Positions 45,133-49,675 of a stretch of DNA of 64,000 nucleotides are shown one piece after another. The notes under the pieces were generated by a model. That model was not told where the DNA came from. It searched no databases and saw only the letters and a list, made by a program, of their open reading frames with translations. The DNA comes from Rhodospirillales bacterium (GTDB taxonomy: Bacteria > Pseudomonadota > Alphaproteobacteria > SP197): the NCBI GenBank assembly GCA_014323865.1, contig JACONG010000001.1, positions 284 through 64,283 of the forward strand. Reading direction: 5' to 3'. Each line of letters starts with the position of its first letter. Positions within the stretch are counted from its first letter, which is position 1. The translations under genes were made by a program, and so were the position numbers.

Positions 45133-46905
45133 ATGCCCCGCCCGATTCGGGTTCTTGTCGTTGCTCTTGCGATGTCGGTTGCCGCGCCCGCCTGGTCGCA
45201 GACCATTGAGGAGGCGGTCGGCCTCCAAGACGGCGGCGATCACGAGGCGGCGTTCGAAGCCTTCTCTGCCCGGGCCGCCGACGACAACCCGTTCGACGTG
45301 CCGGTCGACCCTTGGGACACTGGCGAGGTCCCGAAGGGCGTCCTGAACGAAGACATCATCGCGCGACTGGAAACGGTGCTGGCCGAACGCGCAACCGCCG
45401 TCAGCCTGGTCGAAACCGACGCATCGGTGGACGAGTCCGGGTTGGCGGCCTATCTGCGCGGCCAGATCGACAGCTTCATGTCCAGCATGAACGGGCTCCT
45501 CGGTGAGGAAGGCGGAGACCTTCACTACGTGACCGGGATCGAGGAGGACGATGCTGGCAACATCACCGCACGCGTGCGCGACATCGAAGTCTCGGGTCCC
45601 GACTCCAGCTGGGAAATCGGTGATGCTGTCATGACACTCAGGCCCGTCGGCGACGACCGCTACATGGTGGCCGTGGCCCTTCCCCGGACAACCAGCTTCC
45701 TCGACGGTCGTGGCCGACAGGTCGGCGGCACCGAGATCGGCAGCCAACGTCTCGAAGGCACCATGGTTCCGAGTATCGACATGTGGTCCCAAGCGGTGGG
45801 ACTCTACACCGACCTTCGCATCTGGAGCGACGTTCCCGGTGAGGGCCAGGTCGATGTTGTCATGGACAGCGCGGCGCTCGACATTGATCTCAGCGAGGAC
45901 GCGAACCAGAAATGGAGCGGCCCCGGTTCGATCACGGTGGAGGGCATTACGGCCCGCCTCGAAGGCATGGAACTGATGCGTTTGGGGCAGCTCGACACGG
46001 GTTTTTCCTACGCGGGCTGGGACTTGATCTTCTTTGCGGCCATCGACGAGCAGATAGACGAGCTTCAGGCCGGCATCGCAGACGGCTTGATCCCGGACGG
46101 GGACATCGAGATGCACGCCACCGGGATCCTCGATCTCGTGATGGGCATGGCCGAAGACCGCGCGCCGGTTGCCGAGGCCTTCTCAATGGCCGCGACGGTG
46201 ACCGACCTCTTCTTCCAGGACCCCGACAGCGGTGAAACGGTTGCGATCGCCAGCCTGAACTTCGGTATGGGCATGGACGGGCTCGACGGCAATGCATCGT
46301 CGCTGTTCATCGAATACGGTCACGACGGTCTCGATGTCCCGGTGCCGGGTCCGAAGGCCGATCTCGTGCCGCACATGTTCGACATGCGCATCAGCCTGAA
46401 CGACCTTCCGTTGCAGGACGCCACGGCGATGATGCTCGAAATGCTCGGGGGCGCGATGGAGGATCCGGAGGCTTTCGAGGAGCAGGCCCGGATGGCGCTC
46501 GGCTTCATGGCGCTCGGTCTGCAGCAGCGCATGGTACAGTCCGGCAGCAATGTCCGGATCGAAAGGTTGTCGTATGAGAGCCCGGCGCTCAGCGCCGATC
46601 TCGTGGCCGACATCGTCGCGTCCGACCAGTCACCGAACATGGCCGTTGGCACGGCGCGACTGGAGGTCGTCGGCCTCGACGACTTGATGAAGCGCATGGA
46701 AGAGCAGGCCGCCCGGGGTCATGCCGAGGCCCGGGATGCGGCGCAGGAGGCCGCCCGGAGCCTGGCCATGATGCAGGCCATGGGTGAGCGCCTCGACGAC
46801 GGCGGCACCGTGCGCCACATCTACGATGTCGAACTCGCACCGGACGGCACCGTCCTGCTCAACGGCAACGACATGGGCCCGCTGATTGGCGGCATGATGC
46901 AGTAA
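45133..46905 (+). CDS. large exported protein, unrecognised (590 residues)
   Basis: The ATG at 45133 has AGGGAGA upstream, and a signal peptide (VLVVALAMSVAAPAWSQ) is clear. The mature protein is acidic, rich in alternating beta-type sequence, and contains no recognised motif. Its layout (repeated LxxDVVMDSAALDI-like strands, final NGNDMGPLIGGMMQ) is reminiscent of large periplasmic DUF945/DUF2125-type proteins, but this is not firm. A decayed paralogue of its last ~50 residues lies at 48521-48699. Confidence 0.75.
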   Translation: MPRPIRVLVVALAMSVAAPAWSQTIEEAVGLQDGGDHEAAFEAFSARAADDNPFDVPVDPWDTGEVPKGVLNEDIIARLETVLAERATAVSLVETDASVDESGLAAYLRGQIDSFMSSMNGLLGEEGGDLHYVTGIEEDDAGNITARVRDIEVSGPDSSWEIGDAVMTLRPVGDDRYMVAVALPRTTSFLDGRGRQVGGTEIGSQRLEGTMVPSIDMWSQAVGLYTDLRIWSDVPGEGQVDVVMDSAALDIDLSEDANQKWSGPGSITVEGITARLEGMELMRLGQLDTGFSYAGWDLIFFAAIDEQIDELQAGIADGLIPDGDIEMHATGILDLVMGMAEDRAPVAEAFSMAATVTDLFFQDPDSGETVAIASLNFGMGMDGLDGNASSLFIEYGHDGLDVPVPGPKADLVPHMFDMRISLNDLPLQDATAMMLEMLGGAMEDPEAFEEQARMALGFMALGLQQRMVQSGSNVRIERLSYESPALSADLVADIVASDQSPNMAVGTARLEVVGLDDLMKRMEEQAARGHAEARDAAQEAARSLAMMQAMGERLDDGGTVRHIYDVELAPDGTVLLNGNDMGPLIGGMMQ

Positions 46906-46929: not shown

Positions 46930-47090
46930 CGACCGGTTCGCTGGACCGGCTCTCATCCGGCGTTGCAAGCCATGGTGGTGGTCAACACGGTCAAGGGGCA
47001 CGAAAACCGGTGAAGGGGTCCCGGCAAGCGAGGAGACGGCCTTTCTGTGGCACCGGCGGGCGGCCAATCACGACCACACCGAAGCCCGAT
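46930..47090 (+). pseudogene. possible transketolase-family scrap
   Basis: Two frames in succession read LQAMVVVNTVKGHENR-stop and, after a one-base shift, GEGVPASEETAFLWHRRAAN. Together they resemble the VxNTVKGxG...ETAFWHRRAP segment of the N-terminal transketolase/pyruvate-dehydrogenase fold. The match is short, so this is tentative. Confidence 0.3.
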
Positions 47091-47122
47091 ACCGATGGGC
47101 AAAATTATATTTTTTTTCGGGA

Positions 47123-47151
47123 TTGAAAAAAAGTTTTTAGCGACATATACT
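47123..47151 (+). promoter_or_regulatory. strong sigma-70 promoter of the four-repeat gene
   Basis: TTGAAA and TATACT are separated by exactly 17 bases inside a very A/T-rich segment (47101-47160), unlike the surrounding high-GC DNA. The leader to the ATG at 47204 is about 45 bases. Confidence 0.65.
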
Positions 47152-47203
47152 ACATATCCGCACACAATAGTGCTTGTTGACCAGAGAAGGAGAGTCAAGA
47201 CTC

Positions 47204-48397
47204 ATGGAAAATACGGATCCTGTGGTGAAGTTCCTCACCGAGATTGGCGTGGAACTCAATAATGGACAGAAGCAGGCAGTCACCGGAAGTCTTTGCCTGA
47301 AGAAGAGCGAGACACTTTACTTCGAAGCTGTAGTCAGGGAGATGCCTGCCAGCACCAGGCTGCCTCGTCAGGCGGAAGTTTGCTTCAAAGCCCTCGCCAA
47401 AGCGGAAAGTCCATTGGATTTAGAGCAGTGGGGGGTCGCTGCAACCAAAGAAGGCCTGAAGACGAAACAGGATCCCGCAGACGTCTGCAGATTCTACAAG
47501 CAGTGGCTCATCAACGTCGGCCTGATCCAGCCGGTCATCTCGGGGGGTGCGTCGTTGCCGCGTCCGAAGAAAAAAGGCAAGATGGCTTACTTCGAAGCTG
47601 TAGACGAGGCCGTCCTTGCGGAGGCGTTCGAGGTCGTCGAGAGCAAGGGGCCTTACTTCGAAGCTGCAGTCAGGGAGATGCCTGCCAGCACCAGGCTGCC
47701 TCGTCAGGCGGAAGTTTGCTTCACGGCCCTCACCAAGGCGACGAGTCCGTTGGACTTCGAGCAGTGGGCGCAGGCTGCGCTGGCCGAGGGTCTGGACACC
47801 GAGCAGGAACCCGTCCGCATCTGCGCGTACTATAAGAAAAGACTCATCGACGAGGGCTTGATCCGGCAGGTCAAGCAGGCCTTCAAAGCTGCAGTCAAGG
47901 ATATTCCTGCCAACGTGAAACTGCCGCCACAAGCGGTAAACTGCTTCACGGCCCTCGCCAAAGCGAAAGGTCCGTTGGACTACGAGCAGTGGGCGCAGGC
48001 TGCGCTGGCCGAGGGTCTGTACACCACGCAGGAACCCGTTCGCATCTGCAAGTACTACAAGAAGAGGCTCATCGATAAGGGCTTGATCCGAAAGGTCATC
48101 TTAAGGGACCCGTCGTTACCGTGTCTGAAGAAGAAGGGTAAGCCGCCTTACTTCGAAGCTATAGTCGAGGAGATTCCTGCAGGCATCCATCTTCCTCTAC
48201 AGGCGGAAGTTTGCTTCAAAGCCCTCGCCAAAGCGAAAGGTCCGTTGGACTACGAGCAGTGGGCGCAGGCTGCTGTTGAAGAAGGGCTCATCACCACGCA
48301 TGAACCCGTCCTCATCTGCAAGTACTACAAGAAGAGGCTCATCGATAAGGGCTTGATCCGAGAGGTAGAGTATAGGGCGCGCGTGCCCTGTTTGTGA
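47204..48397 (+). CDS. four-repeat protein of winged-helix-like units, unrecognised
   Basis: The 397-residue protein starts at ATG 47204 behind AGAAGGAG (11-base gap). After a short N-terminal helix region (PVVKFLTEIGVELNNGQ) it carries four repeats of ~75-85 residues, beginning at codons near 47318, 47654, 47879 and 48149. Each has the order YFEAxVxEIPAxxxLPxQA, then EVCFxALAKAKGPLDYEQWA, then AEGLxTTQEPVRICKYYKKR and LIDKGLI. The helix-helix-helix-turn pattern ending in KRLIDKGLI resembles winged-helix domains, with KKKGK basic linkers after repeats 1 and 3. This suggests nucleic-acid binding, but no family is recognised. Base composition is lower in GC than its neighbours, suggesting transfer. 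Confidence 0.75.
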   Translation: MENTDPVVKFLTEIGVELNNGQKQAVTGSLCLKKSETLYFEAVVREMPASTRLPRQAEVCFKALAKAESPLDLEQWGVAATKEGLKTKQDPADVCRFYKQWLINVGLIQPVISGGASLPRPKKKGKMAYFEAVDEAVLAEAFEVVESKGPYFEAAVREMPASTRLPRQAEVCFTALTKATSPLDFEQWAQAALAEGLDTEQEPVRICAYYKKRLIDEGLIRQVKQAFKAAVKDIPANVKLPPQAVNCFTALAKAKGPLDYEQWAQAALAEGLYTTQEPVRICKYYKKRLIDKGLIRKVILRDPSLPCLKKKGKPPYFEAIVEEIPAGIHLPLQAEVCFKALAKAKGPLDYEQWAQAAVEEGLITTHEPVLICKYYKKRLIDKGLIREVEYRARVPCL

Positions 48398-48520: not shown

Positions 48521-48699
48521 ATGCAAGAGCGTGCAAAACAGGTCACGCCGGTTCAGGCGATGGGCAAACGCATCGAAGCTGATGGGGACGTGCTGCACCG
48601 GCACAACGTCGAGCGGACTCCGGAGGGCGACATCCTCCCCCCAACGGCAACGATATCGGCCCGCTTATGCACCGCGCCATGGACTCAGACATCGCCATG
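48521..48699 (+). pseudogene. C-terminal remnant of a paralogue of the 590-residue exported protein
   Basis: The frame VTPVQAMGKRIEADGDVLHR, then HNVERTPEGDIL, and after a one-base shift in a six-C run NGNDIGPLMHRAM, mirrors the end of the 590-residue protein (MMQAMGERLDDGGTVRHIYD, VELAPDGTVLLNGNDMGPL). DNA identity is modest, so it is an old paralogue. Just before it, 48400-48513 translates to NAGGLPTGAVLLRHAIRLDL and on to a stop, another unassigned scrap. Confidence 0.5.
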
Positions 48700-48715: not shown

Positions 48716-49675
48716 TCACTCCAGAGCGGTGGCACCCATCCGCGCCTCCCGCGCCCGCACCGCCTCGCGGTGGAAGACGTAGATACCCGAGCCGGCGATG
48801 ATCGCCGCGCCGAGCAGCGTAGGCCAGTCGGGCACGTCACCGAACACGATCAGGCCGGCAATGATGGCGAGCACCATGTGGCTGAAGGTGAAGGGTGCCA
48901 GGGCCGAGACCGGCGCATTGCGGTAGGCCAGCACGAGGCAGAAGTGGCCCGCCATGGCGAAGCCGCCGACCAGCACCAGCATGGCCCAGTCAACCGCGCC
49001 CAGCGGCGACCACACCCCGGGCACCGTGAGCACCACGATGCTCATCACCACGACACCGGCCATGTTGTTGAAGGCGATCGAGGTCTGGGCGCTGTCGTAA
49101 CGGTTCACCAGACGGGTCAGCACGTTGTAGATCGCCGCCACCAGCGCCACGCCGAGCGGCAGGAAGTAGGCCCAGTGGCGCTCCTCGAAGCCGGGGCGCA
49201 GGACGACCAGCACGCCGATGAATCCCACCAGGATCGCCATCCAGCGCCGGATGCCGACCTTCTCACCCAGCACGGGGATGGCGAGCGCGGTGGTGATGAA
49301 CGGCGCAGCGAAGCCGATGGCCACGGCATCCGCCAGCGGGATGTAACTGACGGTGATGAAGAAACCGCAGGTCATTGAGACCAGCAGGATCGAACGCACG
49401 ACCTGCAGGCCGGGCCGCCTGGTGACAAGGGCCGTGCGCCACGCGCGCGGCCGGATGAGCAGGGGCAGCAGCAGCACGGAGAAAAGGTACCGGCCCCAGG
49501 CAACCTGAAGCGGCGGATGGGCCTCGGTCATCAGCTTGGCCGTGGTGTCGAGCGAGACGAAGAAGAAGATCGAAAGCAGGATCAGAACGATCCCGCGCGG
49601 AATGTTGTCCACGGTCCGTCCCGGAGGTTCGGCAACCCCGTTATAGGCCATCGCCGCCGCGGACGCACCGGTCAT
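48716..49675 (-). CDS. EamA/DMT family transporter
   Basis: The protein is about 319 residues with ten predicted helices in two EamA halves: GIVLILLSIFFFVSLDTTAK starts the first, and FNNMAGVVVMSIVVLTVPGV lies in the second. PVLGEKVGIRRWMAILVGFI is typical. Starts at 49675, 49651 or GTG 49613 are all possible; none has a strong ribosome-binding site. The substrate is unknown. Confidence 0.87.
   Translation of the reverse strand: MTGASAAAMAYNGVAEPPGRTVDNIPRGIVLILLSIFFFVSLDTTAKLMTEAHPPLQVAWGRYLFSVLLLPLLIRPRAWRTALVTRRPGLQVVRSILLVSMTCGFFITVSYIPLADAVAIGFAAPFITTALAIPVLGEKVGIRRWMAILVGFIGVLVVLRPGFEERHWAYFLPLGVALVAAIYNVLTRLVNRYDSAQTSIAFNNMAGVVVMSIVVLTVPGVWSPLGAVDWAMLVLVGGFAMAGHFCLVLAYRNAPVSALAPFTFSHMVLAIIAGLIVFGDVPDWPTLLGAAIIAGSGIYVFHREAVRAREARMGATALE

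Follow-up and report, generated by a model that had tools for sequence, protein, structure and literature searches.

Winged helices in tandem

Tandem winged-helix arrays are mostly known within larger machines, SelB and MARF1 being examples. In MARF1, eight tandem LOTUS domains are listed among its RNA-binding modules (PMC7279887). The subject here is an open reading frame (ORF) at 47204–48397 in a 64,000-nt stretch of contig JACONG010000001.1 from a Rhodospirillales bacterium (the whole stretch is called the window below), which encodes a protein made up mainly of four predicted winged-helix units. The gene is real, intact and an orphan; its function is a matter of proposal. The reading put forward below, to which we would give about an even chance, is of a single gene that was acquired horizontally, inserted here, and encodes a multivalent nucleic-acid-binding protein.

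The repeat units and their divergence

The array protein contains four units of ~77 residues, close to the ~80 residues first estimated from the sequence, and the start of a fifth. The positions are as follows:

47204–48397, + strand: winged-helix array ORF (ATG at 47204, stop at 48397), 397 amino acids (aa), isoelectric point 8.8
47309–47542, + strand: unit 1 (aa 36–113), the most diverged, with a weakly basic helix 3
47567–47629, + strand: start of a truncated fifth unit within the 1–2 linker (KKKGKMAYFEAVDEAV; KKKGKMAYFEAVDEAVLAEAF), as read in the protein; the DNA repeat copy is at 47569–47603
47645–47875, + strand: unit 2 (aa 148–224), which abuts unit 3
47873–48100, + strand: unit 3 (aa 224–299), the most basic
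48101–48139, + strand: basic 3–4 linker (LRDPSLPCLKKKG)
48140–48376, + strand: unit 4 (aa 313–391), the unit used for modelling

Protein identity to unit 4 is 74% for unit 3, 70% for unit 2 and 56% for unit 1, and 37 invariant positions are common to all four. At the DNA level the units are 68–81% identical to one another, and an unaided repeat search recovers all four copies (232 nt). They are unevenly spaced, at 336, 225, and 270 nt: units 2 and 3 abut without a linker, and the 1–2 linker holds the start of the truncated fifth unit. The motif KKKGK is found in two linkers.

An earlier note on this DNA, made by a model from the letters alone, had described pairs of units as nearly identical in DNA and concluded that the array grew by recent duplications. 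The near-identity is there: counting from 47317, units 1 and 2 differ at just 1 of 71 nt, and blocks of 24 nt are 100% identical in pairs 1/2 and 3/4, and also 2/3, at different places. Duplication stands as well, but not its recency, since synonymous divergence (dS) between units is 0.35–0.67, so that the duplications are not very recent. Because the identical blocks sit in different unit pairs at different places, the mosaic is probably better read as older duplications with later gene conversion between units than as a simple series of recent duplications. The ratio of nonsynonymous to synonymous divergence (dN/dS) is 0.43–0.62 for the pairwise comparisons, which suggests protein-level constraint over a non-trivial time since duplication; with ~52 synonymous sites per pair, these dN/dS and dS figures are rough.

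Predicted fold

An AlphaFold2 model of unit 4, made with only the four units as alignment, has a mean predicted local distance difference test score (pLDDT) of 95.5 and a predicted template-modelling score of 0.85. Its elements are a strand (residues 4–7), a helix (20–31), a single-residue bridge (36), two further helices (38–47 and 56–69, separated by an 8-residue turn), and a final strand (73–76), giving the three-helix bundle and small beta sheet of a winged helix. With high confidence, then, each unit is predicted to be a compact three-helix winged-helix domain, a fold of known kind that most often binds DNA or RNA, and the one named in the earlier note. A full-length single-sequence model is poor (pLDDT 49); the same three helices recur in all four units.

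In the textbook winged helix, a strand follows the wing. The sheet of unit 4 is formed by one strand after helix 3 and a partner from before helix 1, so a wing hairpin, if there is one, would have to be shared by adjoining units, a point on which the full-length model is too poor to be a guide. At the abutting units 2 and 3 (LIRQV-KQ-AFKAAV), neighboring strands could form a canonical wing hairpin, and the 3–4 linker with its KKKGK could similarly be a wing loop, leading from the final strand of unit 3 into the opening strand of unit 4.

The best structural matches to the unit 4 model are winged-helix domains or unnamed phage proteins. In the Foldseek viral library these are A0A6J5QDL3 (template-modelling score, TM, 0.81; 1.8 Å), A0A6J5QS69 (0.74), and POR1_81 (0.72), with a best E-value of 1.1e-3. 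Among solved structures in the PDB, the RPC39 winged helix comes first (TM 0.67), followed by the DNA-binding regulators Fur and PerR; none of these has E < 0.1, the best being 0.13.

The insertion site

The gene lies between a weakly DUF945-like gene and a DMT-type transporter gene, with a relic on either side:

45133–46905, + strand: upstream neighbor, weakly DUF945-like, lacking N-terminal Sel1 repeats carried by its closest relatives
47003–47110, + strand: Sel1-repeat relic, similar to the N-terminal region that the upstream gene has in relatives
48554–48669, + strand: relic of the upstream gene’s 3′ end (68% DNA identity, frameshifted), beside the transporter gene
48716–49675, – strand: DMT-type transporter, the convergent downstream neighbor and a conserved partner in relatives

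A genome from the same genus (G005) has the upstream and transporter genes convergent and ~30 bp apart; here the distance is 1.8 kb. The array gene is an insertion, given this adjacency in G005, the relics on both sides, its low guanine-plus-cytosine (GC) content, and its absence from all relatives searched. The GC content, which the earlier note had also placed below that of the neighbors, is 56.6%, against 62–67% in five nearby genes. By codon position it is 59/40/71% (69/43/82% in the upstream gene), so the ORF follows the coding pattern of nearby genes at lower GC. The ORF is unlikely to be an assembly error, as it is inside a 92-kb contig between conserved neighbors.

Most simply, the upstream gene was duplicated in tandem, its second copy decayed, and the array gene then landed in the middle of that copy, although the order of these events is conjectural and the Sel1 relic could instead derive from another of the several Sel1 genes of this genome. 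An 11-bp direct repeat, CGATGGGCAAA (47093–47103 and 48558–48568), was considered as an insertion-site duplication; both copies are within gene-relic sequence, and it is probably due to chance. Separately, the upstream gene is without ~107 Sel1-repeat residues that its closest relatives have after the signal-peptide-like start and before the DUF945-like part.

A search for homologs, which the earlier note had proposed, found no sequence relatives of the array protein in GTDB genome contigs, IMG/VR, phages, or plasmids, nor in 60 relatives, the order, and overlapping samples of 385 genomes from the class and 398 from the phylum; a PDB sequence search also returned nothing. The gene has thus been found so far in only this bacterium. 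Two weak matches were set aside as chance: one in genome G003 (E 0.0068), which is interrupted by in-frame stops and whose reverse strand resembles, by eye, a LysR-type gene, and one in an Ensifer plasmid (E 2), an out-of-frame reading of another gene.

Possible signals upstream of the gene

Three short elements precede the start codon:

47111–47132, unstranded: perfect 8-bp inverted repeat TTTTTTTC-N6-GAAAAAAA, which overlaps the array gene’s –35 box
47123–47151, + strand: promoter-like TTGAAA-N17-TATACT, a sequence match
47187–47192, + strand: AAGGAG, ribosome-binding-site-like, 11 nt 5′ of the ATG

The TTGAAA-N17-TATACT sequence, earlier described as the gene’s own promoter, is present. Taken alone it is modest evidence of one, because 20 of 100 shuffled versions of the window contain the motif with up to two mismatches, and sites with 10 of 12 matches occur twice in 2 kb, against 0.5 expected. 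The inverted repeat was matched in none of 100 window shuffles, although these were drawn with the composition of the whole GC-rich window and so understate chance pairing of homopolymer runs in a short AT-rich patch. It might speculatively be an operator, and is a lead only.

Proposed function and its alternatives

Nucleic-acid binding is the leading hypothesis because helix 3 (PVRICKYYKKRLID) is basic in units 2–4, with net charges of +3, +4, and +3 (+1 in unit 1), and because the linkers are basic. DNA is favored over RNA, weakly, on the ground that the leading structural matches include Fur and PerR. In the proposed arrangement, the small sheet of each unit would be closed by the strand preceding helix 1, helix 3 would be the basic contact helix in units 2–4, and the basic KKKGK linkers would take the position of the wing loop, where the closing strand of each unit leads into the opening strand of its successor. 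A series of weak contacts could then give tight, extended binding, more probably to double-stranded DNA than to RNA; given the basic helix 3 of units 2–4, it is plausible that the protein could grip DNA or RNA along the length of the array, as the earlier note had suggested. A likely setting would be a regulator or DNA-coating protein from a phage or other mobile element.

Several observations weigh against this. The concentration of charge in helix 3 is suggestive only (p ~0.07–0.11 per unit in units 2–4, which are not independent), and unit 1 is without most of the basic helix-3 residues. Net charges of whole units are +1, –1, and +7 for units 1–3 and ~+2 for most of unit 4, near neutral overall. 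Kinship with phage proteins would, at the modest Foldseek E-values, be a structural likeness with homology not proven, and sequence homology between the units and POR1_81 was not detected with hhalign (probability 7.6, 13 columns aligned). Finally, no integrase or transposase was seen adjoining the insert, and no mobile-element genes flank it.

Of the alternatives, an RNA-binding tandem array, acting in the manner of MARF1’s LOTUS arrays or of the four winged helices at the C terminus of bacterial SelB, survives best, as an unlikely but real possibility. The RNA-binding precedent of MARF1 cited above is in its favor, as is a helix 3 that is tyrosine-rich as well as basic. Against this, no SelB or LOTUS structure or profile is among the matches listed, and there is no RNA element at the locus (Rfam gave nothing credible).

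It is also rather improbable that the protein is a scaffold, with winged helices serving as rigid repeats that bind a partner protein and not nucleic acid. Many winged helices do bind protein, and the near-neutral units and few basic residues of unit 1 would suit such a role, but three of the four units keep a basic helix 3, and two linkers contain KKKGK.

Slightly less probable still is that the acquired gene is idle or decaying: it would once have been functional and since have lost its role, sitting within a gene copy that had itself decayed earlier. Its position between relics of a neighboring gene and its absence from all relatives searched are what would be expected of such a gene; unit 1 looks degenerate, as does the truncated fifth unit, and a dN/dS of ~0.5 is weaker constraint than in strongly constrained genes. 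This has to be set against an ORF intact over 397 codons with coding-like GC by codon position, a ribosome-binding-site-like motif, a promoter-like site, and a unit fold predicted with high confidence.

The earlier note had found no recognizable family, and this is essentially right. The sole curated match is to Pfam HARE-HTH (PF05066), to which the whole protein scores 27.2 bits (cut-off 25.9; E 5.1e-6). A naive annotation would take this at face value, but the score passes only by summing several repeats: the best single unit scores 12.8 bits, over profile positions 4–35 of 71 (helices 1–2 only), and the genome-wide single-match score is 11.9. Aligned over helices 1–2 to nine real HARE-HTH domains from genomes, the units score 20.5; the highest score among 100 column shuffles was 16.7. 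A profile of the nine domains, however, gives no unit more than 4.6 bits, and searching in the reverse direction finds nothing convincing. HARE-HTH domains are described as having an extra helix inserted in the helix-turn-helix (HTH) motif (PMC11037411), and this helix is not present in the three-helix unit 4 model; helix 3 and the wing of the units do not align. Membership is not supported, though a distant common origin of the helix 1–2 core is possible, and a true HARE-HTH protein, reading modified DNA as proposed for that family, is very improbable. Other Pfam and NCBIfam matches (Lipase3_N, CNOT1_HEAT, CcoQ, and others) were below cut-offs and mostly short stretches, and PHROGs and PADLOC searches gave weak matches only.

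The preferred reading, of an inserted nucleic-acid-binding array, could be extended to multivalent winged-helix arrays as a new family, one whose wing hairpins would be shared between neighboring units. Changes in repeat number, through duplication and conversion, would then set how much DNA or RNA is covered, and the array would have spread from phages as a single gene; we regard this larger picture as doubtful. A free-standing, repeat-evolving array with no sequence relatives would be a compact system for studying the expansion and homogenization of nucleic-acid-binding repeats, and small phage proteins sharing the fold may prove to be a class not yet described.

Comparison with known systems

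The closest structural counterparts are the uncharacterized phage proteins A0A6J5QDL3 and A0A6J5QS69 (uncultured Caudovirales) and POR1_81, whose predicted fold matches that of a unit over its whole length. At 118, 222, and 202 aa, respectively, they differ in being too short for four units, and they are only 22–26% identical. POR1_81 (A0A0N9SJI4, Pseudomonas phage POR1), itself an orphan, has by eye a strand-like segment before helix 1, as in the units. The structural match is equated with the POR1_81 gene by its length, 202 aa. By eye this protein may also hold two winged-helix-like domains. The gene (L038:5724-6332) is the last in the linear POR1 record, which opens with the small terminase; the genome has been reported as circularly permuted.

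The domain-swapped winged helix of RPC39 (RNA polymerase III 39 kDa; PDB 2yu3), the top match among solved structures, aligns over 79 columns; it differs in belonging to a eukaryotic polymerase subunit, with just 10% identity to the unit. HARE-HTH, found in RNA polymerase delta, ASXL, and restriction-associated proteins, resembles the units over the stretch from helix 1 through PLxY to helix 2, and differs beyond it, as described above. SelB and MARF1 give no sequence or listed structural match, and the array protein is without their GTPase or nuclease domain; by analogy only, the C-terminal domain of SelB and the LOTUS array of MARF1 have tandem winged helices in one chain, as here. With the winged-helix fold already known, what is new at this locus is an array that is free-standing and without relatives.
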